DNA from: Amoeboaphelidium occidentale
Lineage: Eukaryota > Aphelidiomycota > Aphelidea
Reading direction: 5' to 3'
Length of the DNA stretch: 64,000 bases
NCBI GenBank assembly: GCA_023515795.1
Contig: JALGPX010000013.1
Location: forward strand, 53,453 to 117,452
Shown one piece after another: positions 4,783 to 64,000 of the stretch; the stretch's first letter is position 1, and each line of letters opens with the position of its first letter. Under the pieces are notes generated by a model. The model saw only the letters and a program-made list of their open reading frames with translations, was not told where the DNA came from and searched no databases. The position numbers and the translations under genes were made by a program.

Positions 4783-5332
4783 TTTATCGCGCAGAGCTCC
4801 AGCTCAAGCGTCTACATGCTGCGAGCTGGAGTGCGAATGCGCTTTCTTAAAGGGGGTTGTCATAGTCCATTATGTATACATGAGTTGAAACAGACAAAGT
4901 TTTGGGCGGTTAAAATCTGCAATTCAGATAGCTTAACTGTTTGGAACAGGGACATTAACGCTGCACGAAATATCAGACACGTTTTCTTGGATTTGAATGC
5001 AAATGAAGGTAAAAGACCGCTTGCGTTCTCCAGGAAGANATTTATCGCGCAGAGCTCCAGCTCAAGCGTCTACATGCTGCGAGCTGGAGTGCGAATGCGC
5101 TTTCTTAAAGGGGGTATATCTAGCTCTCTCTGAGCCCAGCGAGTCATGTTCATCCTGCTTACATGAGTTGAAACAGACAAAGTTTTGGGCGGTTAAAATC
5201 TGCAATTCAGATAGCTTAACTGTTTGGAACAGGGACATTAACGCTGCACGAAATATCAGACACGTTTTCTTGGATTTGAATGCAAATGAAGGTAAAAGAC
5301 CGCTTGCGTTCTCCAGGAAGAATCGTGCATGA
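4783..5332 (+). pseudogene. Decayed C-terminus of a Fanzor/TnpB-like RNA-guided nuclease, present twice around an N
   Basis: Two copies of one sequence (4783-5038 and 5041-5321) surround an undetermined base at 5039. In the right-hand copy a frame to the TGA at 5330-5332 reads a first Cys pair (ESCSSC), then VKICNSDSLTVWNRD and RDINAARNIRHVFLDL. WNRDxNAARNI is the C-terminal zinc-ribbon/RuvC-III block of OrfB/TnpB proteins and their eukaryotic relatives, the Fanzors; the tail KRPLAFSRK also fits. The second Cys pair of the ribbon is missing and no upstream RuvC domain exists, so this is a relic. The left copy differs in about 20-45 nt between the Gly/Lys stretch and the HELKQTKFW block, which removes its first Cys pair. 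No terminal repeats could be identified. The Fanzor assignment rests on this one block. Confidence 0.6.
4797..4831. repeat. 9-bp perfect inverted repeat (CTCCAGCTC / GAGCTGGAG), also at 5055-5089
   Basis: Arms at 4797-4805 and 4823-4831 with a 17-nt loop. The identical structure recurs in the second copy at 5055-5063 and 5081-5089. It lies just upstream of the Fanzor-like coding relic. It may be a palindrome of the transposon or merely part of the decayed reading frame. Confidence 0.5.
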
Positions 5333-31694: not shown

Positions 31695-34407
31695 TCAGTT
31701 CCACGGATAAATTTTGTTGAACAGCTCAAAAAGTATCATTGAATAAGAATAGATATCACCGGCTTTAACTACTTCTGCTGCGTCTTCTACTCTGTGCCTA
31801 AATCTCATAAAAGCCTCCGGTGAAGCGTAACGTACAGAAAGACCTCTTAAATTTGCTAGTCTAAACGAATTTGTCGCTAGAATTCTAGTTGATACAACCT
31901 GGGCTATTCCAAAGTCGGTCAAATACGCTCTCAGCATTCCATTCTGTGTTTCGATCAGGACATTTGGCGGTTTCAGATCACAGTGTGCAATATCTCGTTT
32001 GTGAAGGTGGTAAACTCCGAAAGCAATATCAAAAGCCAAGTAGAATTTTTCGTTCCTTACGAGATTTTTATGGTGGATCCATTTGACAAGAGATCCATCC
32101 TTGTAGTATTTCATCACAATCACGCAAGGAAGATCGGAGTAACCAATGATTTTGGCGATGTTTGGGCTATCTTTTAGTGTCATCATAGTAGCCACCTCTT
32201 GATCAAAAGCTAGCCTCTGCAATTCGCCAAGAGAATCGTACTTCTCTGCTATGAATTTTATGATAACTTTTTGGCCGAAAACACCGACTCGCTCAGATGC
32301 AGCATCGCCCAAGTAAACTTGGCCGCCGCCGCCTTTAGTAATTAGTTTGCGCATTATGTATTCATTGCTTTCCAGCTCCGCATAACCTATATTGTTTAGT
32401 CATCAGTTTGTGACAATTACCTGGCTTTGCTAATCCAAGATTAGCTGTAAACAGTGTCGGGTCATTAAACTTGGTGTGCGTTGTATGTGATGAATCTTTC
32501 TGGTAATCAGACAATCCCAAATTCTCATCAGATTTACTTGTTGTTGTTCCTCTGAACATAAGTTCCATGGATTTGCTCCGATGTGCCGTGAATCCGGCGT
32601 GAAGAGAACGTATTCGCCTTCGATTATAAATAACACATCCCAAAACAACAAAAAATCCGAATACAACAATGAGAATGAAGTAAGGGGTCATATTAATTTG
32701 GGTGGGCTCCAAATCTCCTACTTTTACTTGAGTAACTGGTGTTCTGTTAATCCCCAAAGTTAATGACCCTGTATTCAATTCTAGGGCTGTTGAAGTCGTC
32801 GTCGTCGTATCAAATACGAATATCCTTTCAGGCATTTTGAAGGACCATACTTGATTCTCCGTATACGAGATTTCCTGAATATAGTAGGCCCCACCAAATA
32901 CGAAAAACGAATTTTTCGACTTTGAGAAGAACCCACAAGATTCGGATCGCGATCCAGGCTGATTTAAATTACTTGGAACTCCGTAAGGTCCGAAATATGA
33001 TGGCTGATCTAACTCTTTAGATCCACTTAACCAAATCCATAAGTCCATGTTACTGTCATAAACCCACAAATCGTTCAAATAGGTGCCTGAACCTGATATT
33101 CCATCCGGGGAGGTTCCACCAAAAATGAAAAACAGGCCCCTATCCTCGTCAAATGCAGATGCAGCAAATCCCCTTGCAGATGGATATTGATCGATTAGCA
33201 GAAATCTTAGTCTTTCGTAAATGCCAACAGAATTTGGTTCCATTTGTTTGTAAAGAATCTTCCACGATTTTGTTTTAGTATTGTAGCTCCATATTTCATT
33301 CGTCGCATTTTTCAAGTCTTAAATTAATAATAAACGCGCCTTGCGACTTACTTATGCTATTCAACCATCCTCCAAAAATATAGATGTGCTTCCGCTGCGT
33401 AGAATACTCAGTACTAGCAAAGGATACTCCACGTCTCATGCTGTCATTAAATTGGCGATGCTCTTCGGTCCATGTTTCGTTTATAGGATTGAAGGTCCAC
33501 ATTTCCTTGACGACATCTGAATATTAATATGTGAAACAAATCAACTTACTTGTAGAATCGTCACCATAACCGTCAATTATGTACCACAAATTTTCTTCTT
33601 CGACATTAGCGGCCGCGTAACCTATTTTTCTATATGGCTCGACTTCAACTTCATCTGTGCCTGGAATCGCACCTCGGATCCATCTCCACATACGAGTTTT
33701 TAAATTGAACTTATACCATTTAATGTAAAGAGAATGAATAATATACCTGCCATAAATCATTACATCCAAAATCTACGTTTAAGATACATTAGAGATGCTA
33801 ATTTACCTTTAGAGGTATCCGAGTAGTACTCAGGGAAATATGCTATCCCGCCGTAAAGATAAACTGAATCGTTCTTCAGGGCGCATAACAGCTTTGCAGA
33901 GTTTCTTGATCTTGGTATTGATTCGAAACTAAACCGGTCTTTATCAACATAAAATCCTTCATCGTTCACAGTTGTGCCTCCACCGTAATATGTGAACTGA
34001 TTAGTTTTAAGATCATATGTCCAAACATCATTCATCATTCCAATGTAATCCACATCTATAAACCCGAATCCTCCAAAAATCAAAAGAATCTCCTCATTAG
34101 GGTCGTAGCAATAAGTCATGGGAGATCTGGCGCCAGGCATCGCTTCGGCTGAAGGTACANNNNNNNNNNNNNNNNNNNNTATAAACCCGAATCCTCCAAA
34201 AATCACAAGAATCTCCTCATTAGGGTCGTAGCAATAAGTCATGGGAGATCTGGCGCCAGGCATCGCTTCGGCTGAAGGTACACCAGGCTGACCAAAGACT
34301 ACATATCTGTTTTGCAGCTTGTCGCCCTTCAGCCATGTCCATTGATAAGGAGCACTCCAGCATGCATGAAGCAAAGTAAGTATCAGGGCCGGCCAGAGGT
34401 GAGCCAT
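31695..34407 (-). CDS. Kelch-ectodomain receptor kinase, six exons
   Basis: Exons 33807-34407, 33747-33772, 33550-33709, 33352-33516, 32421-33317 and 31695-32386 are joined over introns of 34, 37, 33, 34 and 34 nt to 846 residues as assembled. A signal peptide (AHLWPALILTLLHACWS) precedes a Kelch propeller with blades ending IFGGFGFI, YLYGGIAYF, YIFGGWLNS, FIFGGTSPDG and FVFGGAYY. A transmembrane helix (YFILIVVFGFFVVLGCVIY) follows, then a ~100-residue juxtamembrane segment, then an apparently active kinase: GGGGQVYLG, VIIKF, HCDLKPPNVLIE, TDFGIAQV, YASPEAF, GDIYSYSMILFELF. It stops at KIYPWN, before subdomains X-XI. Exon 1 includes a 20-N gap flanked by a 103-bp duplication; removing 123 bp keeps the frame and would leave 805 residues. 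Exon 2 is only 26 nt. Confidence 0.85.
34057..34282. repeat. 103-bp near-identical duplication around a 20-N gap
   Basis: 34057-34159 and 34180-34282 are identical except one substitution (AAATCAAAAG versus AAATCACAAG). They are separated by Ns at 34160-34179. This is the pattern expected when overlapping contig ends are scaffolded without being merged. The duplicated codons repeat the first Kelch blade of the receptor kinase. Confidence 0.9.
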
Positions 34408-34729
34408 GATCGTTGAAACAAGATATAAATAGCACAAGCGGCGAGATTCTTTGTTGGTTCCCAAAACTTCCAAAGAATTGGAATTCATTTGTAGCATGGC
34501 TATTGGTATCTAACCATTATGCTTCAGTTCTTACTATGTCGCTTCTTGATACGATTACGCCAAAGAAACATTACAACATTTCATTCCCAAAGCAAATCCA
34601 GGAATCCAACTCAATACAACCACGATTATTTAACAAACCCTGTTTTTAAGGCGAAACCCCTAACTAGAAATCTGTCCATAAAGTGTCGCTGCGGACTAAA
34701 AGCTGATCTATTTTTACTTAGTATGCGCT
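34408..34729. other. 322-bp upstream region of the Kelch receptor kinase, no gene supported
   Basis: It contains an in-frame upstream ATG (34497) that would add 30 residues before the signal peptide. The internal ATG at 34407 is preferred because it opens the hydrophobic signal directly. The remainder is AT-rich with no coding signal on either strand; it should hold the promoter of the receptor kinase and the 3' end of the next minus-strand gene. Confidence 0.5.
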
Positions 34730-36253: not shown

Positions 36254-39200
36254 TTATGCGGTTGAAAAATGACTTGCGACTGCGCCCGTAATGGTGCCCT
36301 CAGAGTCGTCAGCACTCAAATCCCATAAGGCTGAACCAAACAAATTCAAGGACTTAATTAGATCACATTTCGCAGTAACAGATCTTGTGTCCTCATGAGT
36401 TATGAAGTAACCAAAGTTCGGCATTGATGTTGATGGACCGAAACAATAGGAGGCACCAGCCTTGTCATCGAAGAATGTCTTAAAGTTTCTTGTGGTGATC
36501 ATATTCTTGATAGTCGTTTGCGTGACTACATTTGTGCCATATCCAGGGTCACCATCAGGAAGAACAGAATAAACAAGATACAAACCGTTTTGCCAAGCAA
36601 CAGGAACTCCATCAAAGGCTCTTCCAAACAATGGAATACCAATAACCATCTTATTTGCAGGAACTCCTTGATCTGAATATGCCTTGTATGTCACGGCAAT
36701 CGAAGCAAATCTCAATGGATCTGATGACATGTTAATTTCGATGTTACTGTTGTGACCAGTCATACGGTAAGTAGAGGAGGGAGATCCAGGTGCAACAAAA
36801 TCATAAGACTGAACTGAAACAAAATCAACATTATCAGATATTTCTTTGGCATTCATGAACACCGAAGGAGTTGGCATGGTTGAAAATGCAGAGACCCAAG
36901 GAATGTGACAACCAAGGACAGGAGCAGGACTTAGTGAAGACATTGCTGTTCTTAACTCTCTGCATAATGTTGTCAAGTTCTGGCCCTCAGTAGCATTCGT
37001 AGGCCATCTATATTCGACTAATAATCCTTGAAGACCATTCGTTTGAACAAATTCTTTTGCTGAAACTGCCAAAGTTCTCATACTAGCAGCATTCGCAGTC
37101 CTCATGAAATTAACAAAATTGTTGTCACCCAGAGCAACAACAACGGCCAAACTGCGGTTCTTAGTCTTCAACTGTGTGTTCACGATGTTCATATTCGCTG
37201 CATCTCTTGACACATTTGCCCACGCAACTCTTCCATTAGACACAGTTACTGGACCATAAACTAGGTGCGAAATCTTGTCGGCTGGAACTTTGTCAATAGT
37301 GTAGTTAATTGGAGCTTGACCAGTGAGAGCGTTGTAGTAGCCCATGATTGGTTTTGAGAACTTGCTGTCGCCAGGAGGGTCTGGTGTAGGTGTAGGAGTT
37401 GGAGGAGGTGAAGAAGAACCGCCTCCGCAACCTTCATAATCACAAGATCCACTAATCAAACTAGCATTCAAACCATAAATCAAATCAAGATCTTTAGAAT
37501 CTCCACTGATCTCCCATGCAAAAATACCACCCAAATCCTGAGTTGTTACATACGAAGCTTTAGCGTCCAATGAGCAGCGACTGTCAAAAGTGATGAAATG
37601 TCCATCGGTTGAACAAAATGCCCATTCAGCAACAGCTGTCTTGTCGAAATTTTTGCCCAATTTCTTCTGATTCAACAATTTCTTGATGTGATGATAAGGA
37701 TATAGTCCTAATTCTTGCAAGTGCCCACCAGGTACATCGGCTGCTGGCGGCAGATTTTGCTCCGTCACAGTCTGTCCTAAGCCCTTATTATCACCTTTAG
37801 GAACGTTGATCCATGATCTTCCATAGAAAGGAACACCAATGACAACCTTCTTCTTTGGTATTTCTCTACCAACATAGGTATCAATTGTTTCTTTCACACT
37901 TCCCTCAGAAAAGTTGGATGGGTACATTGGAGCAAGATATCCCGTCTTTGTTGATGCACCTGAAACATAATCGAAAGTCTTGACATTAACAAAATTAGCT
38001 GGTTTGACGATTGAGGAATAGTTCAGTGCATCCACTAAAGCTTTCTTGGAAGGTGCAGAAACAGAAATAAGCAAGCCAGAATTTCTTTCGTTGAAGGCTT
38101 TTCTAAGAGCATTAACAGCCTCAGCATACAATCTCATGTCATTAGCAATGTTTCCACTAGTAGATCCTTGCAACCCTGGCCATTCCCAGCAAATATCCAC
38201 TCCATCAAAACCATACCTATCAATGAAATCCAAACAACTTGCAGTAAAATTTGACACGTTTCTGAAAGCAGATGGGAAATGCTGTGATCCTGAGTAGCCC
38301 CCAATGGACAATAAGATTTTTAAATCAGGATAATTTGGCTTCAAAACTTTGTTCAAGTACAAATAAGCCCCAGTTGTTCCATCATATGGTCGAACAAGAT
38401 CAGTAAAATCATCGCCAGCAGAAAGCGAACCATCAGCGTTAATTCTGGCGTAAGCATAGAACAGATGAGTAAGCTGAGACATAGGAATATCTGCAGGAGA
38501 GTAACCATTTGAAGCACTCCAGTAAGTGTAATAAGCTGAAAGCATAATTCCGGTTGGTGGTGGCTGAACGATAATATCAGTCGGATCTTCAGGATCTGTT
38601 GGCAGATTGAGTTTGGGTCTTGATTCTGGTGAAATTTCACCAGAATCAAGTACTCCTGAAATGGTAGATAACAGCTCATTGTTCCTATCACCCGACAATT
38701 CCCAGAACATGACTCCTCCCAATTTGTTGGCATTAACGAACCATGATTTTTCGGTTATACTTCTAACATTATCATAACTGATGAAGATTTCTGTTCTTTC
38801 AGAATATCTCCATGGTGCCTTAGCGTTGTCGTCCCAATGATCGGTGTAGCCACTTCTTGTAATCAAATCTTTGTAGTCAAAAACTCCATTTTCCCATGTC
38901 CCTTGAGGAATCGATGTGAAAGTCTGGAACAAACCATTGTTTGTGGTAGGAACTCCTTGGAATCCTCTGCCGTAGAATGCAGCACCCAAACAAATTTTCT
39001 GATGAGGGAAACCATTGTCAATATACTTTTGGACTGCACTGAATGTTGAGCCAAATCCGTCATCGAATGGGTCTCCTACAACTGGGTACAAAGGAGTGTG
39101 ATGTCCAGTTCCCCTGCTCCATGCACCTCTGTAGTCATAAGTCATAACATTCATGAAATCCAAAGCGAAACCAACAGGCCCTGCTTCTAAGCGATCAATT

Positions 39201-42200
39201 ACTCTTGGATTCGCTCCTGAAGCAATAGTTAACAAATAATTTTTCCTTGTTCTAGCTGTCAAAGCATTCAAACTGTTTCTGATCTCCTGCAGAAGAAGTG
39301 TGTAGTTCCTGCCATCACTGGGATCGGTAACATTACCAGGTAAACCGTCTCCTCCAGGAAATTCCCAGTCAATATCAACACCGTCAAATCCGTACTTGTC
39401 AATGAATTCAGCGCAGGAGTCAGCGAAAACCTTTCTTGAATTCATGTCCCTAGCTACGACAGAAAACTGACCAGACCAACTCCATCCTCCAACAGAAATC
39501 AGCGTCTTCAAGTGTGGATACTTCTGCTTCAAATCACGGTTTATATATCCAAAGTTTCCGTTAGGATAAGTTGCGGGTGTTTGACCAGGGTACATCGGAT
39601 TATCAACATCAGCCCAAGGATCACCCAAAGCAATTTTTCCACCAGAAATGTTTGCGAAAGCTTAAAGTTAGATGCCATAAGTAGACCTTACCATAATTCA
39701 GATGAGTCAAGTCAGCAGCAGGAATCATCGATGCCATATACTTTCTGTCGTACACTCCCCATGAAATGAAGTAACCAACGCTCATTTTCCCTGATTTGAT
39801 GTTGCCTTGCACAGGTGGCTCCTCCGTTGGAGGCTCTTCAGTAGGTGGCTCTTCTGTTGGTGGCTCCTCGGTCGGAGGTTCTTCTGTCGGCGGCTCCTCA
39901 GTTGGCGGCGAGTTTCCAATTCTTAACATTGGTCTTGGAGAATCAGCCACTTGTCCTGAGCCTAATACATTGACCATGGGATCCAACAAAGTAGTTCCTC
40001 TGTCTCCTGAAAGTTCCCAGAACATGGCACCGCCAAGCTTGTTTGCATTAACAAACCAGCACTTCTCAGTAATACTTCGAGGAGAATCATAACTAATCAT
40101 CAGACCAGCAGGGCTGTAACCCCAGTGTGCTTTCACTTCATCATCCCAATATTCAGTAAGACCACGATTGATTAAATCCTTGTAATCAAAAACACCAGTT
40201 GCTCCTTCATTACCAAAAGCGTCCCATGTACCAAGAGGTATAGACGAATAAGGCTGAAACAAACCGTTTGTGCCGCCTTCAGGAACTCCTTGAAATCCAC
40301 GTCCATAGAAGGCTACACCAATGCAAATCTTTTCTGGAGGAAATCCTGTGTCAATGTAATCCTGAATTGCTACAAACGAACAGCCCAAACCATCGTCAAA
40401 TCTGTCTCTGGTAGATGGATACAAAGGAGTTTGATGACCTGTACCTCTAGACCAACCTCCTCTGTAATCGTAGGTCATTATATTCATGAAATCAAGAACC
40501 TGGCCAAGTTTGTCATTCTCCGTTCGGCGAATGATTTCAGGGTTCGCTCCGGAAGCAATAGTTACCAAATATTTCTTTCCCGTTCTAATACTCAACGTGT
40601 TCAAGCTATCTCTACAGGCTTGACAAAGCAGAGTGTAATTAGGACCATCGTTAGGGTCGGTAGCATTTCCGGGTAAACCATTTCCTCCAGGATACTCCCA
40701 GTCCAAATCAACACCATCAAAGCCATACTTATCAACGAATTCAGCACATGAGTCTGCAAATATTTTTCTGGATGTGGCATCTCTTGCAACAATGGAGAAC
40801 TGTCCAGACCATGTCCATCCACCAACAGAAATTAAAGTCTTCAAATGAGGGTACTGTCTTTTGATGGCACCATTAATATAGCCAATATTTCCATTAGGCG
40901 AAGTACTCCAACTCTGTCCAGGATACATAGGTCTTTCAATATCAGCCCAAGAATCACCAATGGCAATTTTGCCGCCAATAATATTAGCAAAGGCGTAATT
41001 AAGATGAGTAAGCTTTTCAAACGGAACACTTGTAGCTGTGAAGTTTCTTGCGTAAATGCCCCAACTAATGAAATAGCCGACAATCAATTTTGGATAGTTT
41101 CCTTGAGAAGGCAATCTGGTGTTTTGAGTGTTCCTAGACTGGATTGACAAGGAGTTCATATTAGGCATGGTATTTCTAGTGGAAATTTGCTGTCCTAAAC
41201 CAGAATATTGTGGTATGGTAACACCTGCTGGAAGAGAAGTGTCTCCTTTTTCCAAAGCATTGCAAGCAGCCTTCAACAAGCTGTGGTCGCCATACTTTTT
41301 TCCATCACAATCTGCAGCTACATCATAGCAAGCAATTCCAGCAAGTCCCCAAGCATTTACAAGCTTAGACTTTTCATAAACTGACTGCCCATCATCATAA
41401 ACAATCAATAGGTTTGTCTTTGTCGGCTTATTATCCAAATGAACGTCATCGTAATGAATTTCACCAAACAAATACGGGACTTTTGCAACATCATCCCAGT
41501 ACTTTTCCAAATGATACTTGCTATCCTTCTGCAAAAAGCGGTCGACTATGTCCCAGTAGTCAAAAATTCCAGTTGCATGCTGTGAAACATATGTAGATTC
41601 AAAAGTACCGCTTGGGATTTGAGTGAAATCCTTGTTCATCACATTGTTATCAGCTTTAATTCCACCAAAACCTCTTCCATACATTGAAACAGCGGGAACA
41701 ATTTTTGAGGGTTGTAAACCATTTTGAATGTACGCAGCAATCGAACCAGAGACAGAATCCTCCTGTTTCAATTGAGGATTAGGGTACAGGGCACTGTGAT
41801 GCCCAGTTTCATCAGACCACGAAGCACCTTTGTAATCAAAGCTCATCACAACAGCAAAATCGACGAGATCTCTAATTGCAGCACAGTCAATGTTCGCAAC
41901 AAAATCCAAAGCAGCAGGAATACAAACAGACAACACATGGTTACTTTTCAAAGAATCTAGCGCCATCTTGAGCTTATTCAACAACATTGCAAAGTTTGAA
42001 CGATCCGAAGGAGATTTGGAGTTATCTTCGTTACCACCTTCGACGGGATATTCCCAGCATATCATCAATCCGTCAAAGCCATGCTTTTGCATAACATCAA
42101 TTGCGCTTTTCACAAAAGTTTCAACTTTTTTCGGGTCAGCGGCAACTTCAGAGAAGTGTTTTGAGTAGGCCCAACCGCCGATCGCATACAAAGTCTTCAA

Positions 42201-42755
42201 TGAAGCGTTTTTAGATTTCACCGACTTATTCAACTGAGCAATACAACCCTGATAAGCATTCCCTTTATCATCAGTGAAAACCTTTTCCAAATCAGCCCAC
42301 TTATCACTTTCAACCACATTACCATCAGCCAAGACATCAGCAAAAGAGTAAACCACATGAGTACACTTGCTGCTATCAATCATTTCAGGAACATAGCCAC
42401 GTTGGTAAACAGACCAGTTAGTGTAGAACGCGACAACTTTCTTGTCAACATTTTCCGGAGCTGAAACAACATCTGGAATCTCAGGAAGGAATTTAGCACT
42501 TTCTTTCAAAGAGAGCTGAGCAACTTTTCTGTCTTGCAACTTCAAAGAATTTCTTGCGCGTGTTCTTCTGAGTGTGTCACTGCGCTCAGGCCCTTTCGGA
42601 ATGGAGTGCGACGACGCATAATCTTGCAAAGGCGTGTGAGGAACTTCTTTTGATTTACTTCTAAAAAATCCGAATACCATCTCACGAATTAAGTACACAA
42701 TCTTGGGAATAAAGTTGAGAGATGTTATAAAGATATTTATGTGGCGTATTTCCAT
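36254..42755 (-). CDS. Giant penta-domain GH18 (chitinase-family) protein with mixed active and inactive units
   Basis: Exons 39692-42755 and 36254-39660 flank a 31-nt intron; 2156 residues. Five GH18 barrels lie in series, beginning near residues 103, 553, 987, 1391 and 1789. The catalytic motif DxxDxDxE is intact in units 2 (FDGVDLDWEYPGG) and 3 (FDGVDIDWEFPGG). Unit 1 reads DGLMICWE (two Asp lost), unit 4 DGVDICWE (third Asp to Cys), and unit 5 GLQGLLVEYRWP (catalytic set lost). Units 2 and 3 share long near-identical stretches, pointing to recent duplication. Linkers are PPTEE repeats before unit 3 and SSPPPTPTPTPDPP before unit 5. The N-terminus MEIRHINIFITSLNFIPKIV may be a signal anchor; a later ATG at 42680 is an alternative start. 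It probably binds and cuts chitin at the surface or in secretion. Confidence 0.9.
39817..39908. repeat. 15-bp tandem repeat encoding PPTEE linker, about six copies
   Basis: Consecutive 15-bp units on the minus strand encode (PPTEE)n between GH18 units 2 and 3. Individual copies differ at third positions, so it is an old or selected repeat rather than a fresh slippage product. Confidence 0.9.
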
Positions 42756-57371: not shown

Positions 57372-57644
57372 ATGAAGATCTTATTACTCTTAATCAGCAT
57401 CCTTCTACTCGTTCATTCTTATCCAACTTCAGTATCAAAACCTTGCATCAGATACTACTCTGAGAAATTATGCAGAAAACTATCAGAAAAACTAGCACAC
57501 AAGCAATCTATTAAATTATCAAAATCCCTCCAAAAAGAATTAAGTCATAATTACAATCTGGACCAGGAAAACAGCTACTTGACTTCATACATTAATGAAC
57601 CAATTTACAGCAGCTACTACTTTAAAGATAAAAAACAACAATAA
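57372..57644 (+). CDS. Small secreted protein C, Lys-rich
   Basis: 90 residues. Signal peptide MKILLLLISILLLVHSYP, then a mature ~72-residue chain with two Cys (CIRYYSEKLC) and a basic amphipathic stretch (KLAHKQSIKLSKSLQKEL), ending in a Tyr/Asp/Lys-rich tail. No family recognised. The third small secreted protein in a row. Its size, signal and Lys content are those expected of a secreted effector or peptide precursor, but this is inference only. Confidence 0.65.
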   Translation: MKILLLLISILLLVHSYPTSVSKPCIRYYSEKLCRKLSEKLAHKQSIKLSKSLQKELSHNYNLDQENSYLTSYINEPIYSSYYFKDKKQQ

Positions 57645-57685
57645 CGAATGCATCTATTAAATACAGAATGAATTAATAAAAACTA

Positions 57686-59623
57686 CTACTGCAAGAACAT
57701 TGACGTTTCTGGATCAGTTACATTCCATCCTTGATTCAACATTATTCCCATCATTCCATTCCATCCATATCTTTCAATCAATCTTGCTGGAATCAATGCA
57801 ACATCCTGAACCCAAATATCTCTTAAAGTCAATACAAACCCACCCAAATCAACTTTTATCCTGTGAACTCTGACATTAGCCCTGAACTCACGTTGCTGAA
57901 ACAGAGTTGAATGAACTTGTCGCAATCCTCCAATAATACTAGAAGTAATCAAATCTTCTACATTAACTCTAAACCTCAGCTGTGGACTGATGGAATTGTC
58001 CAAGTATGAAATTTCAGATTTAGCACCAACTTCACTGATAGAAGAAGAAGAAGAAGAAACAACAGCAGCAGCAGCAGCAGCAGCAGCAGGAACTACTGAT
58101 CCTATTGATGTACCATTCATGTGAGGCACTAGAAACAATTCCAAATCCAAATCCAATAGTTTCATTACACAAGCAAATGGATTCCTTAATCCAACCCTTA
58201 CACCAAGAAATCCTATGCGGCCACCACCACCACCAACACCACCTTTTAGTAAACCTTGTATATCAAATAAAGACAATTTCAATCCTCTGAAAACATCACC
58301 CAATCCACCTTGACCAACAAATGGAACTGCTTCAAAGAACCTTCTTAATCCACCTCTACCAATCTCTCTGTAACTCTCACCAATCCTCACTACTCTATTA
58401 CAAAGCACTCTCTGCACAGCCATGACGAGACTACTGTTATTCCTAGTTACATCTTGAGGACAATAACCACTCAGAGTAATAGGCAAAGTATCACTACTAC
58501 CTTCTTTCTTATTCCCATAAATAGAATCCATTACCATACGCAATACAGTCTCTGGTATTACAGATTCCATATAATACCTCTCTTCTTGATTAGTAGTTCC
58601 CAACATCAGTTTCCCAGTAACATTCATTATACTCCGTCCTCCATTAACTGTAACTGAATTCATGTACAAATTATGAACTTTTACTTGTACCATTTGAACA
58701 ATAGAAGAATAATTCATTTGAACTTGATACGATCCCAATCCTGTAAATTGTATTCTATAAGGATTCCTAAACTCCAGCAACAATTCAAACTCCATCACTG
58801 AATTAGAAGTTGAAGTAGTTGGTAAGATGTCAAAGTGTACAATAGACAAATAATCATTCATTGCTTCCAATACGTAAGAGTAACCATTAGTAACAGATTT
58901 AAAGTAGAAAAACAAATCATTAACAACATAAAGATTTAAATCAGTATCATCATCATCAGGAGAATTTACTTTTAAAGAATGATCAAATAACAAAACTTTC
59001 TTGTCTACTATTAATTCTGAGATGGTTAATGCATTCTTAATCCCTAACAAATGAACTTTAACATCCAAACAAGTACAAACAACTCTTAATCTGATTGGTG
59101 AAGTAGTAGTAGAATTAGAAAGTAAATCTTCAACCAACTCATAGAATCCTTCATTAGTAGTAGTAGTAGTAGTAGTAGCAGCAGAAGTAGTCATCCTTAC
59201 TCTTAGTGTAATGACGTCATTTCCATTAATAGAAGAATACAAATCCAAATCTTCCAATAAATCTGCTACTCCAACTTCTTTACTTTTATAATAAACTTTT
59301 ACTTTCATATTAGAAAGAGTAACATCTGATGGTAATGCAGTAGGCTGATTGGCTCTAATCAACAATTCAACATGATTCTCTTCTAATGGACCAATCTCTA
59401 ATTCTTCATAGAAAAAAGAATATCCTTCTAATTCCAGAGGATATAAATAATCAACAGCAAATTGAGCCAAAGGTTGTAATCCCACAGTCAGACAGACAGT
59501 CGTAGGAATTATTACAACCAAAAGGAATATTATTAAACAGATGATGTAACAACGATTATTATTATTATTATTATTCTTCTTCTTCTTCTTCTTCTTCTGA
59601 ATCATCGATGGAGTAGTGGACAT
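57686..59623 (-). CDS. DUF3712/Tag1-like vacuolar-type membrane protein
   Basis: Intronless, 645 residues. The N-terminus has coded homopolymers (Lys8, Asn7), then a transmembrane segment (YIICLIIFLLVVIIPTTVCL, about 26-45), then a long beta-rich lumenal part with LEA2/DUF3712-type strands (ELEIGPLEENHVELLIRANQ; LRVRMTTSAATT; IKNALTISELIV; VHFDILPTTSTSN; FRNPYRIQFTGLGSYQVQM; RVHRIKVDLGGFVLTLRDI). Fungal DUF3712 proteins include yeast Tag1 of the vacuole. Several trinucleotide tracts are translated (Thr7, Ala9, Ser6). The gene differs from the rest of the window in its density of simple repeats. Confidence 0.72.
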   Translation of the reverse strand: MSTTPSMIQKKKKKKKNNNNNNNRCYIICLIIFLLVVIIPTTVCLTVGLQPLAQFAVDYLYPLELEGYSFFYEELEIGPLEENHVELLIRANQPTALPSDVTLSNMKVKVYYKSKEVGVADLLEDLDLYSSINGNDVITLRVRMTTSAATTTTTTTNEGFYELVEDLLSNSTTTSPIRLRVVCTCLDVKVHLLGIKNALTISELIVDKKVLLFDHSLKVNSPDDDDTDLNLYVVNDLFFYFKSVTNGYSYVLEAMNDYLSIVHFDILPTTSTSNSVMEFELLLEFRNPYRIQFTGLGSYQVQMNYSSIVQMVQVKVHNLYMNSVTVNGGRSIMNVTGKLMLGTTNQEERYYMESVIPETVLRMVMDSIYGNKKEGSSDTLPITLSGYCPQDVTRNNSSLVMAVQRVLCNRVVRIGESYREIGRGGLRRFFEAVPFVGQGGLGDVFRGLKLSLFDIQGLLKGGVGGGGGRIGFLGVRVGLRNPFACVMKLLDLDLELFLVPHMNGTSIGSVVPAAAAAAAAVVSSSSSSISEVGAKSEISYLDNSISPQLRFRVNVEDLITSSIIGGLRQVHSTLFQQREFRANVRVHRIKVDLGGFVLTLRDIWVQDVALIPARLIERYGWNGMMGIMLNQGWNVTDPETSMFLQ

Positions 59624-60004
59624 TATGAGATGATAAAGAATACTTTAATTCCTTCAACATCATTATTTGCCATTCTTTTAATTTCTACAAATGAGGCTTT
59701 TCCTCCTTCTGTTTCTGTCTAATCATTTGATTCACACAATCAAAACAGGAAACAGGAAAGAGTGATTGGAAACAATTGTGGCTTATTCAGTTGTATTAGA
59801 TTACTGAAGAAGTAAAAGAATATTCTGTTGTTTAGAGTAGAGGAAGATACTACTACTACTACTACTACTACTACAAATGGAACAAATACTTTTATTGATT
59901 GTATTAAACAAATCATATACATTTAAGTAGGTTGTAGTTCCTTTAATTTAAACATAATACTTTCACTTTCAATTTTATTTGTATTTGTAGTTGTAACCCT
60001 AACC

Positions 60005-60035
<31 letters not shown>

Positions 60036-60156
60036 CTCAATTACAACAACAATCTTTTCCATTCCCAATCATGTGAAATCAAAACAAGAATCTTTTCCAT
60101 TTCTTTTTTGTTTCATAAACAACAACTCAAACTCAAACTCAAACAACAACAGAGAA
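59624..60156. other. 533-bp divergent intergenic region with microsatellites, telobox-like motif and duplicated blocks
   Basis: Between the DUF3712 gene (minus) and RPA1 (plus). It contains block A (59697-59789) repeated at 60836-60928, a TAC trinucleotide tract (59848-59873), block B (from about 59979) repeated at 63899-64000, a single AACCCTAACC (59995-60004) and a TTC tract (60006-60037). No gene is evident. Confidence 0.7.
59995..60004 (+). promoter_or_regulatory. AACCCTAACC telobox-like motif upstream of RPA1
   Basis: One and a half telomere-type (TTAGGG) units, 153 bp upstream of the RPA1 ATG. It is repeated at 63914-63923 in the second copy of the region. Telobox promoters are bound by Tbf1/Teb1-type Myb proteins in other fungi, and two telobox Myb genes lie in this window. 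The regulatory role is inference; a single copy could be chance. Confidence 0.4.
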
Positions 60157-60835
60157 ATGACTGAACAGTATAGCAATTTAATCAAAAAAGGTTCAATAGT
60201 CAACCTCATCAACTCAACAACAACTGAAGAAGAAGATTTACCTCCTTTGGTGTTACAATTACTTAATTACAAGAAATTACCTCAGGGTGACAGATTACGT
60301 TTAATTCTGAGTGATGGAGAGTATTTCATACAGGGAATGTGTTCTGCTTCTGTTAGTAAAGAATTTGATGAGAATTTGTTCAAGAAATTTTCTATTATTC
60401 AATTGACTAATTATGCTTGTAATGATTTATCAGGAAAGAGGATTCTGATTGTATTGGGAATGGAGTGTTTACAATCTATTGGTGTGAATAAGATTGGGAA
60501 TCCCTTAAATGTACAAGATCATTTACAAGATGTGATGAAACAAGGGAAGAGTGTTGTTCCTTCTGTTACAACTACTACTACTACTACTTCTGTTGTTAAG
60601 TCTGCTGTTGTTAGAAATCCTTCTACTACTACTGCTACTACTACTACTACTGCTGCTACTACTGCTACTGCTACTTCAATCCCTGCTGATGATTTGAAGT
60701 TTATTAATGGTGCCCTGTTTCCTATTCAGTCTTTGAATCCTTATCAGAATAAGTGGACTATTAAGGCATTCTGTTTGAAGAAGAGTGATATGAGACAGTG
60801 GAGTAATGCTAAGGGAGAAGGGAAATTGTTTTCTN
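60157..60835 (+). CDS. RPA1: Replication protein A large subunit, 5' part only
   Basis: The ATG at 60157 opens a frame cut at the unknown base 60835 after about 226 residues. The RPA70N/DBD-F domain is present (LIKKGSIVNLIN, PPLVLQLLNYKKLPQ, RLRLILSDGEYFIQGM, FSIIQLTNYACNDLSGKRIL, IVLGMECLQSIG). A Thr/Ala-rich low-complexity linker follows and then the first strands of DBD-A (PIQSLNPYQNKWTIKAF). DBD-A to DBD-C are missing because the assembly jumps to a copy of upstream sequence. Block B restarts at the window end, so the intact gene may lie just beyond 64000. RPA1 binds single-stranded DNA in replication and repair. Confidence 0.85.
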
Positions 60836-60928
60836 CTTTTCCTCCTTCTGTTTCTGTCTAATCATTTGATTCACACAATCAAAACAGGAAACAGGAAAGA
60901 GTGATTGGAAACAATTGTGGCTTATTCA
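60836..60928. repeat. 93-bp copy of 59697-59789 directly after the N (block A')
   Basis: Identical over 93 bp to the segment upstream of RPA1, then diverges exactly after GCTTATTCA. Together with block B' (63899-64000 matching 59979-60080) it shows that 60836-64000 parallels the RPA1 upstream region but carries an insertion. Confidence 0.92.
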
Positions 60929-61245
60929 ACTGTAATACTGTAAGAAGTGTGTTGGTTTTTTTATAATGGTTCTGAAGTTTGGCCTGCTGATCTTTAAGTT
61001 GTTTTGAAGTATAGCAGTGTTTAAACAGAACGCTGCTATACTTCTTCATTCTGATAATTATTGGTTTCAAGATTATCCTCTGATAATGGGATTATCCCCT
61101 TTTCCCAGTGCTTTATACAATAATATGTTTGTGTTGAAAAATATGTATGAGAAGCAGTTTTATGTGATGCTTTTAGGAGGTTGATTGTTTTAAAATCTAT
61201 TTATATAATGCAGTGGTATTATTCGCTCCTCAGGGCACTCGAGTG
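60862..61245. other. 384-bp upstream region of the HTH-EEP gene with a perfect 12-bp hairpin
   Basis: After block A' the sequence is unique. A perfect inverted repeat GAAGTATAGCAG / CTGCTATACTTC has arms at 61006-61017 and 61033-61044 with a 15-nt loop. A TATATAA element at 61203-61209 lies about 40 bp before the chosen start. No other gene seen. Confidence 0.6.
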
Positions 61246-63898
61246 ATGTTTCAAGTGAGAGTTATAAATAGTTTTCTTTTGGTGTACTGTATAGATATGA
61301 GAAGTAATGCTTATGGTAATGCTGCTGGGAGATCATCCTACGCTGTGCAACAGGAAGTGCAAGAACGGCAATCACTTCGCAGACAAGTGATACATGATAC
61401 TTTCATGGCAAACATAACACTGCAGTTGAATGATTATCTGAATGCTGCAACGCCTGGTCATGCTATGCCTTTTCTTACTGAAGCCAATACGTTGCGTGAA
61501 GTGAGGTACAATCAGGAGTATGCAGCGGCCGTTTATGACTTTTTCCGAGTACGCAATCGTACTGGCATCTTTACACAAGTTGCTATCGCAAATGCAATGA
61601 CTTATACAGGTGATTCTAATCTCAAGATTTCTCAAAGTTCAATCTCAAGATGGCTTAATAAGTATCCAGCAGCCGAATTCATGTCTGAGAGAATGATGAG
61701 GTTTCTGTGGTATGTTCATAACAGAAATCAACACTGTGAGCCAGCACCAGAGCACAGGGAAGTCGATGATGATCTTGGTGTGACTAATGCTGCGAATAAA
61801 ACTGGTGCACAAAATGATGCATCAAGTGTAAATGATCATGGCAATAAGGACGGCGGACAAGGTTCTAGCAAGAATGGTAACATCAAGAGTAATAGTGATG
61901 CAGCTGGAGAATCGTCTACTTCTGCTAAGGGAACGGAAACTTCGGTGAAGAAGTCAAAGGATGATAAAAGTATTAAGGTTCTGTCATGGACAATTCATGT
62001 TGAGATGGAGGTCGAAAAGACGTACCTTGAACAGGTCCTTAGAGCTATTTTTAGAGTGATCCAGAGCTCTAATGCAGACGTGATGCTCCTTAGAAGCGGT
62101 ATATTTCATTGTGTTTTTTGGAGCACGAGGCTTCTGGAGAAACTTGGACTGCCTGGTTATGAAGCAGTGAGACCCAATAATACTTTAGAAGAATTTTATG
62201 ATGGGCATGGCGATCTAGTGATAATTTACAGTAAGGCAAGGTTCTCATTTATTGAAACACAGCCTAGTCAGGACTATGGAGAATTAATCGCAAAAAATTC
62301 GGTACTTGCCTTGCTGAGAGACAATCACACTCAAGAATCGATCTTATTTGGGAATCTGTTTTTGAATGGCGCATTTTCTACCCACGATGATGAAACGCAG
62401 AGCTCTTTGCGGGATTGGAGCAGAAGGGGCAAAGAATCTACTGTCAGCAAAGTTGTTATTTCTAGTGCTGTTGGGTTTAAGTCTAACAGCTCATTGTACT
62501 TGTCTGGGCTAAACTTGAATCATGGAATTCGCGTGGAACTGTACAGGAGAGGAGAAAGACGTTTGGCTTTTTACAGAACTCCAACGTTACTGAATCTCAG
62601 TTCCGGAGGCGATTCACATGAAAAGCCATTCAGTCCGATAGAAAACGTTATTTTTTGGCCTCTGCCATCACCCAAAAGACACGAAAGTTATGATGACATT
62701 TTTGATCGGAAGTTCGATCTGAACAGGCAGTTTAGATTACAAAACTTTAATTTGGGTTGTGGTGAAAAGCCACCACATCCTCACAATGATAGTAAAGGCT
62801 TCACTGCAGCGTCTAGAGCCTTATTTAGAAGCACGATCAATACTCATCCTCATGAGGTTATTTTCCTGCAAGAGCTTTTGGCGATGGGAAAAGACCATGA
62901 ACTAGTTGATCTGAGAGAAACTTACATCAATCACCCGCATAATCACGCCGGGATATTTGTTAATCAAAGAGGTCGCATGGGTAATTTATTATCATCACAG
63001 GCAGGGCCGAACACGATAGGAGCTTTTTTACCGGCAGATTCGCCCTATCACCTCCGGTTAGAAAATTATTTTTCACAAGGAGCGGGCCTAGAGTATTTGT
63101 CTGTTGCTCCGGCCTTTGTTTTGCAGAGAACAGCATCGAGTATTTTATACTTGAATGGTATCAAGATCATTTTAGTCTCATTTCACGGCGCAGCGAAAAA
63201 ATCTTATGATGGCAGAATATCTGATTTACAGGGTCTACTCAGTCTACTTCAGGATGTATCAGAACTAGAAAAGGCTCCCATTGTGCTCGGGGGAGACTTT
63301 AACCTTCAACTTGGAAATAATGAAAATAGCAGCATGAGGACGTTTTGGGACGCTTTACCCGCAGCCTGGAAAATAGTGTGGTCTGATGTTGGCGATTTTC
63401 CAGAGTCTCATCGCAAGAGAGTACATCCAATTGATTTCTTTATGGTTTACAACCCGCAGTCTAGCGATCATTTCGCCGTCTTCTACAGCGCAAAACGTCT
63501 CGAGGTTCTAGACATGTATGCTTCCGATGGATTCGGTGATGCACTTTTACCAGAAGATCGCCAAAGAGTTCTCAATACAGGAATCAATGACCAGCTCATT
63601 AACCGAGTCGCATACGTTTGGGATCATTGCCCACTTGATGTTGTAGTACAAATTCGAGATCGTCCAAAACGAAAGATTCCTCATGTGACTAAGATTGGGA
63701 GGAACGCCGGAGCATTAGACAGCACAGCATCCTCGGCACAGGGCAAATCATCCAACTAACAATGTAGTACCTATTGGCATACCTTTCCCATAACGGGTTT
63801 TAATGGTGTCGTATAGTAAAAAATAAAACTTTTTCGGTAACCTGCATGTAAGATGAATAACTGTATTAAGGTTAATATAAATGACCATCTATTCTATT
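60929..63898 (+). mobile_element. Putative ~3 kb insertion relative to the parallel copy
   Basis: Blocks A (59697-59789) and B (59979-60080) are 189 bp apart in the first copy. In the second copy A' and B' are separated by 2970 bp holding the HTH-EEP gene. The TTC tract differs by two units (33 versus 27 nt between shared flanks), as expected of alleles. I see no terminal inverted repeats or clear target-site duplication, so the mechanism is open. If the scaffold order is real rather than a haplotype join, this is a local duplication instead. Confidence 0.5.
61246..63759 (+). CDS. Helix-turn-helix plus double EEP (endonuclease/exonuclease/phosphatase-fold) protein on an insertion
   Basis: About 837 residues from the ATG at 61246 (61297 is an alternative). 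The N-terminal region contains a helix-turn-helix-like segment (IANAMTYTGDSNLKISQSSI followed by SRWLNKYP). A Ser/Lys/Asp-rich linker follows. A first, degenerate EEP-like unit then begins IKVLSWTIHVEMEVEK, with the metal-binding Gln-Glu replaced (SNADVMLLRSG). A second unit near 500-810 has the full EEP set: FNLGCGE, VIFLQELL (metal Glu), ILVSFHGA, IVLGGDFNLQLG and PQSSDHFAVF. DNase I-like EEP enzymes cut phosphodiesters; non-LTR retroelements use one as endonuclease, but no reverse transcriptase is present. The gene occupies an insertion relative to the paired haplotype, so it may be a mobile or accessory gene. Confidence 0.68.
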   Translation: MFQVRVINSFLLVYCIDMRSNAYGNAAGRSSYAVQQEVQERQSLRRQVIHDTFMANITLQLNDYLNAATPGHAMPFLTEANTLREVRYNQEYAAAVYDFFRVRNRTGIFTQVAIANAMTYTGDSNLKISQSSISRWLNKYPAAEFMSERMMRFLWYVHNRNQHCEPAPEHREVDDDLGVTNAANKTGAQNDASSVNDHGNKDGGQGSSKNGNIKSNSDAAGESSTSAKGTETSVKKSKDDKSIKVLSWTIHVEMEVEKTYLEQVLRAIFRVIQSSNADVMLLRSGIFHCVFWSTRLLEKLGLPGYEAVRPNNTLEEFYDGHGDLVIIYSKARFSFIETQPSQDYGELIAKNSVLALLRDNHTQESILFGNLFLNGAFSTHDDETQSSLRDWSRRGKESTVSKVVISSAVGFKSNSSLYLSGLNLNHGIRVELYRRGERRLAFYRTPTLLNLSSGGDSHEKPFSPIENVIFWPLPSPKRHESYDDIFDRKFDLNRQFRLQNFNLGCGEKPPHPHNDSKGFTAASRALFRSTINTHPHEVIFLQELLAMGKDHELVDLRETYINHPHNHAGIFVNQRGRMGNLLSSQAGPNTIGAFLPADSPYHLRLENYFSQGAGLEYLSVAPAFVLQRTASSILYLNGIKIILVSFHGAAKKSYDGRISDLQGLLSLLQDVSELEKAPIVLGGDFNLQLGNNENSSMRTFWDALPAAWKIVWSDVGDFPESHRKRVHPIDFFMVYNPQSSDHFAVFYSAKRLEVLDMYASDGFGDALLPEDRQRVLNTGINDQLINRVAYVWDHCPLDVVVQIRDRPKRKIPHVTKIGRNAGALDSTASSAQGKSSN

Positions 63899-64000
63899 TG
63901 TATTTGTAGTAGTAACCCTAACCACTTCTTCTTCTTCTTCTTCTTCTTCTCAATTACAACAACAATCTTTTCCATTCCCAATCATGTGAAATCAAAACAA
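63760..64000. other. 3' flank of HTH-EEP gene and start of block B' (RPA1 5' region again)
   Basis: 63760-63898 has no gene. From 63899 the sequence matches the RPA1 5' region (AACCCTAACC, TTC tract, AACAACAATC stretch) and runs off the window 76 bases before where the second RPA1 ATG would fall. Confidence 0.8.

Follow-up and report, generated by a model that had tools for sequence, protein, structure and literature searches.

In the draft genome of Amoeboaphelidium occidentale, an aphelid that parasitises algae, the region upstream of the gene for replication protein RPA1 is present twice, and the two copies hold very different amounts of DNA between the same flanking blocks. The locus raises the question whether the longer copy carries a new type of self-inserting element, as proposed in an initial annotation, or an ordinary gene on another version of the same interval. 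We analysed a window of 64,000 nucleotides, which corresponds to C101:53453-117452 of the assembly searched here (11.3 Mb, 204 contigs). The features of the locus are collected in Table 1.

Table 1. Features of the RPA1 upstream region and of the piece that follows it, in window coordinates.
Feature	Position	Strand	Evidence
Neighbouring ORF of 645 aa, to the left of the polymorphic interval	57686..59623	-	ORF list
Left shared block, main path, 93 bp	59697..59789	+	100% identity to 60836-60928
Segment of the main path only, 179 bp, replaced in the alternative piece	59790..59968	+	block comparison
Right shared block, main path, 119 bp, with a CTT run inside	59969..60087	+	92% to 63888-64000
RPA1 N-terminal part, cut off by the join	60157..60834	+	PF04057; P0002 match
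Single N, a scaffold join and not DNA	60835	.	sequence, block comparison
Left shared block, alternative piece	60836..60928	+	block comparison
Segment unique to the alternative piece, 2959 bp	60929..63887	+	block comparison, genome search
Perfect 12-bp inverted repeat with a 15-nt loop, upstream of the orphan ORF	61006..61044	.	
Orphan ORF, 837 aa	61246..63759	+	ORF list
C-terminal EEP-like (Exo_endo_phos) domain	62701..63759	+	PF03372 match, motif order
Right shared block, alternative piece	63888..64000	+	block comparison

Two copies of the blocks upstream of RPA1

The same two blocks occur in the same order in both copies. They are separated by 179 bp in the main path (59790-59968) and by 2959 bp in the alternative piece (60929-63887), which bears out the initial estimate of about 190 versus about 2970 bp. 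The right blocks (59969-60087 and 63888-64000) are 92% identical over 119 columns, with a 6-bp difference in the CTT run, and agree exactly over the last 76 bp. The alternative piece as a whole covers 60836-64000 (3165 bp). It stops a short way into the shared sequence, at a base that is also the last one of the contig. One gene had been said to fill the extra DNA, and a long ORF (61246-63759) does occupy the longer copy. No Pfam family scored above its cut-off in the 645-aa ORF on the left side of the interval.

The short segment has no significant similarity to the ends of the long one. When 177 of its 179 bp were compared with the two 300-bp ends of the long segment, the observed scores were reached by 68 and 301 of 500 shuffles, respectively, and therefore the difference between the two versions is a replacement. 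Since 2959 bp are gained and 179 bp are lost, neither a clean empty site nor a target duplication can be defined.

In a search of the own genome with the two blocks (116 matches; 40 of 46 candidates scored), the matches listed included no further one of comparable strength to either block. The right block had weaker partial matches of 75-76% over about 85-90 bp, three of them on contig C173, as well as short matches to the CTT run; all other matches were short or fell on microsatellite-like stretches. These results bear on the possibility that the piece stems from a paralogous locus, that is, from a second site in the genome that arose by segmental duplication of the RPA1 upstream region and carries the gene, and of which only a fragment was assembled and then mis-scaffolded. 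The divergence of the flank beside the right breakpoint would fit such an origin. So would the size of the assembly: a table in PMC10608142 gives 13.56 Mb in 951 scaffolds for the published assembly, and since this is larger than 11.3 Mb, the copy searched here is incomplete. However, the genome searched contains a single RPA1 N-terminal match and, as described above for the matches listed, the flank blocks match strongly nowhere else. We consider a paralogous origin rather unlikely.

The second copy lies behind a single-N join

The alternative piece is preceded by a single N at 60835 and ends at the last base of the contig, and therefore the tandem order of the two copies is a product of scaffolding. 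At 60836 the piece does not form a dovetail with its neighbour. Instead, it lies across an internal part of the upstream sequence, as expected of an alternative path.

We also looked at other short-N joins. After removal of duplicates, the window and the fetched loci held 24 distinct joins of 1 to 20 N, of which 21 had overlapping flanks (20 of 23 when the join at 60835 was left out), but since the sample is biased, consisting mostly of loci that match the ACT-rich microsatellite stretch of RPA1, the overlap rate elsewhere in the assembly may be lower. Thirteen of the 24 were end-to-end dovetails and eight were other overlaps; the three joins that showed none (two in L027 and one in L028) come from loci that a different search had retrieved. 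An exact overlap of 76 bp was found at the right end of the piece and at three other joins (34160 in the window, L007:80 and L035:8301), and this recurrence hints at the trace of a k-mer assembler. With an exact overlap of 93 bp on the left and 76 bp on the right, the piece does not prove to be a simple fixed-k bubble.

The other two joins of the window, at 5039 and at 34160-34179, are both dovetails whose unmerged overlaps (281 columns at 90% and 103 bp at 99%, respectively) make false short duplications. The join at 34160-34179 duplicates a stretch within the ORF 33760-34497.

Judged from the sequence, 60836-64000 fits best as an alternative path, of another haplotype or strain, through a single locus and not as a tandem copy, and we infer that the two paths are allelic. 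The presence/absence polymorphism proposed earlier fits the assembly evidence in that both flanks belong to one locus and stand in order, but it takes the form of a replacement and not of a clean insertion.

The gene model MP638_007159 is a false fusion

The N-terminus of RPA1 was recognised by PF04057 (E 3.6e-17 on 60073-60834), and this was the only such match in the assembly searched. The fragment at 60157-60834 matches residues 1-245 of P0002, a 632-aa RPA1 encoded on a 7785-bp metagenome contig, whose RPA1 domains continue past residue 245. The two sequences share 198 of 246 columns; by eye, they are near-identical outside low-complexity stretches. Public data seem to include the source of P0002, which would be a very closely related strain or species. 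The remainder of P0002 beyond residue 245 was not found in the 11.3-Mb assembly searched, nor was the RPA1 C-terminal family PF08646, and the continuation of RPA1 past the cut is not in the 3165-bp piece. A true tandem duplication was considered and rejected, since the N interrupts the RPA1 reading frame, which has another continuation in P0002.

The GenBank model MP638_007159 (P0001) follows RPA1 up to KKSDMRQW and picks up again within the 3165-bp piece. Since the protein resumes beyond the N, the model is a product of the join: a false fusion of the RPA1 N-terminus with the orphan gene, spliced across the N (60157-63759). As read by eye, it implies a 34-bp intron at 61180-61213.

The orphan gene is host-like in codon use and has no detected relatives

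The orphan ORF (61246-63759) is intact, with an internal ATG at 61297 that would give a protein of 820 aa, and an AATAAA was read by eye past its end, at 63822-63827. The 11.3-Mb assembly searched contains one copy of the segment and one of its protein. The codon use of the ORF is host-like: its GC3 (0.378) and its mean codon log-likelihood (0.056) fall within the ranges of 19 other ORFs of the window (0.327-0.425 and -0.002 to 0.140, respectively), which were hand-chosen from 31 of at least 200 aa, with nine left out. The 645-aa neighbour (GC3 0.252) and RPA1 (0.270), both scored apart, lie outside the GC3 range.

Base composition is one point for a chimeric contig, produced by the assembler or by contamination. 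Bins of 300 bp within the ORF have a GC content of 0.407-0.443, compared with 0.277-0.397 in the AT-rich flank 57401-60834, and the assembly has many faulty joins. On the other hand, the two ends of the piece correspond to one locus, in the correct order and orientation, the divergence by the right breakpoint looks natural, and the codon use is that of the host. We regard a chimera as very unlikely.

RPA1 lies within an AT-rich, microsatellite-dense fraction of the assembly with many single-N joins, to which 57401-60834 and the loci L007-L023 belong. The GC content was 0.275-0.372 in the 17 loci picked by microsatellite match (L007-L023), 0.406-0.418 in L024-L031 and 0.367 in L032. Elsewhere in the window, two adjacent long ORFs of 1113 and 1044 aa (36254-42755) have the look of multi-domain, chitinase-like proteins with repeated units.

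Neither the whole ORF nor its EEP part retrieved a homologue other than the organism's own GenBank protein, the hypothetical MP638_007159 of Amoeboaphelidium occidentale; since these searches require exact 5-residue words in common, and the whole-ORF search scored only the 7994 candidates with the most such words, a very distant relative would escape them. No significant match to the orphan protein came from viral contigs, phages, PHROGs, PADLOC or PDB, and NCBIfam gave three weak ones (ArgR, E 0.1; L23, E 0.038; EEP family protein, E 0.12). The gene appears to be lineage-specific.

One probable EEP domain in the orphan protein

The initial annotation described a helix-turn-helix (HTH) segment followed by a degenerate and an intact EEP unit. 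For the intact unit, the C-terminal third of the protein aligns to positions 3-204 of the 225 of the PF03372 profile, with an E-value of 2.9e-4 (21.1 bits) for the whole protein and 2e-4 (21.7 bits) for the domain alone. The catalytic motifs of EEP proteins are, in order, N, E, H, GDFN, D and DH. In the orphan protein we found QNFN, LQE, VSFH, GGDFN, PIDFF and WDHCPL, starting at residues 499 to 792, which we take to be this catalytic set, as matched by eye without a control run. The unit thus has a profile alignment and the motifs in the expected order, as in the EEP superfamily, but both scores stay below Pfam's curated cut-off of 24.5 bits. The protein further differs from the superfamily in its long N-terminal region without a known domain and in that no homologue was found. 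The seven PF03372 matches listed in the genome search, six of them over the cut-off, do not include the orphan ORF, and phmmer against ORFs from six other EEP loci of the genome gave nothing above noise, a result to which we attach no weight because these ORFs were roughly picked and are probably wrong in part. An AlphaFold model of the 820-aa ORF, made without an alignment, had a mean pLDDT of 32.6 and was unusable for recognising the four-layer alpha/beta fold. The E-value of 2e-4 nevertheless points to the superfamily PF03372 and to a protein that would work in the manner of EEP proteins, most likely as a phosphodiesterase or nuclease that requires metal and uses a single EEP domain.

For the remaining parts of the proposed architecture, the searches gave no significant match. 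When both proposed EEP units were run against profiles, only the second matched, below the cut-off as described; the first (about residues 240-490) had no Pfam match at E<=10, and its best NCBIfam match was ribosomal L23 (E 0.038), which we took as chance. The local score between the two units was reached by 145 of 1000 shuffles and the global score by 17 of 300. The HTH segment had no Pfam match. Its best NCBIfam match was ArgR, where a stretch that includes TQ...SQSSISRW aligns to positions 15-59 as in an ArgR-type winged helix, but at E 0.1 the match is not significant. A model of the 160-aa N-terminal part, also predicted by AlphaFold without an alignment, was unusable as well (mean pLDDT 41.7). 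Both 'double EEP' and 'HTH' come from resemblance by eye only, without statistical support, and the HTH may be regarded as a lead only.

No support for a self-inserting element or a defence gene

The proposed self-inserting element would combine a DNA-binding module with an EEP nuclease that nicks the target and inserts its own gene. In LINE elements the EEP domain nicks DNA, and the presence or absence of one gene-sized segment, here with an EEP-like domain and a perfect palindrome near its start, would be in line with such an activity. The inverted repeat at 61006-61044 occurs nowhere else in the 11.3-Mb assembly searched. When the segment was shuffled by mononucleotides, 5 of 300 shuffles had arms of at least 11 bp, and a scan for 12-bp inverted repeats found two other places in the window.

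Most of the evidence speaks against this idea. The search for other genomic copies, empty sites and target duplications yielded a single copy in the assembly searched and a replacement of 179 bp. The two ends of the piece showed no significant terminal inverted repeat, as their strongest match on opposite strands was 9-12 bp (E 0.81). No reverse transcriptase was found in the segment, in line with the initial annotation: EEP is the sole Pfam match in the orphan ORF, and the only two RVT_1 matches in the genome searched both lie outside the contig of the window. The viral contigs and phages searched held no relative. In the ORF2 of LINE non-LTR retrotransposons, the EEP endonuclease is located at the N-terminus. 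The orphan ORF shares an EEP-like domain with it, here in a possibly polymorphic segment, but carries it at the C-terminus, has no reverse transcriptase match and is single copy in the assembly searched. Our literature search found no paper combining an EEP domain, a helix-turn-helix and a transposon. We consider a self-inserting element highly improbable. We give still less credence to an orphan DNA-binding EEP nuclease on a haplotype-specific segment that would cut the empty allele and in this way insert its own gene or bias inheritance towards itself, with neither a reverse transcriptase nor a transposase involved. The suggestion of a defence gene found no backing either, as no PADLOC family matched at E<=10. 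The gene is most likely an ordinary accessory gene.

A probable alternative path next to RPA1

We put the probability of the following reading at about 0.65. The stretch 60836-64000 would belong to a second haplotype, or to a close strain sequenced along with the first, and cover the interval between the 645-aa ORF and RPA1. This alternative path would carry a single-copy protein-coding gene, apparently lineage-specific and probably gained there rather than lost from the main path. The scaffolder would have placed the piece after the end of RPA1 with one N, creating both the false tandem and the false fusion MP638_007159. The orphan protein itself would be a metal-dependent phosphodiesterase or nuclease through its single C-terminal EEP domain.

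For users of this draft, the short-N joins are a warning, since they are able to create false tandem duplications. The public gene model MP638_007159, in which the replication protein RPA1 is fused to an unrelated nuclease-like gene, is corrected here. Aphelids are described as sister to Fungi in the abstract of PMC10608142. If the allelism of the two paths is proven, the presence/absence of a gene next to RPA1 would be documented in an aphelid.
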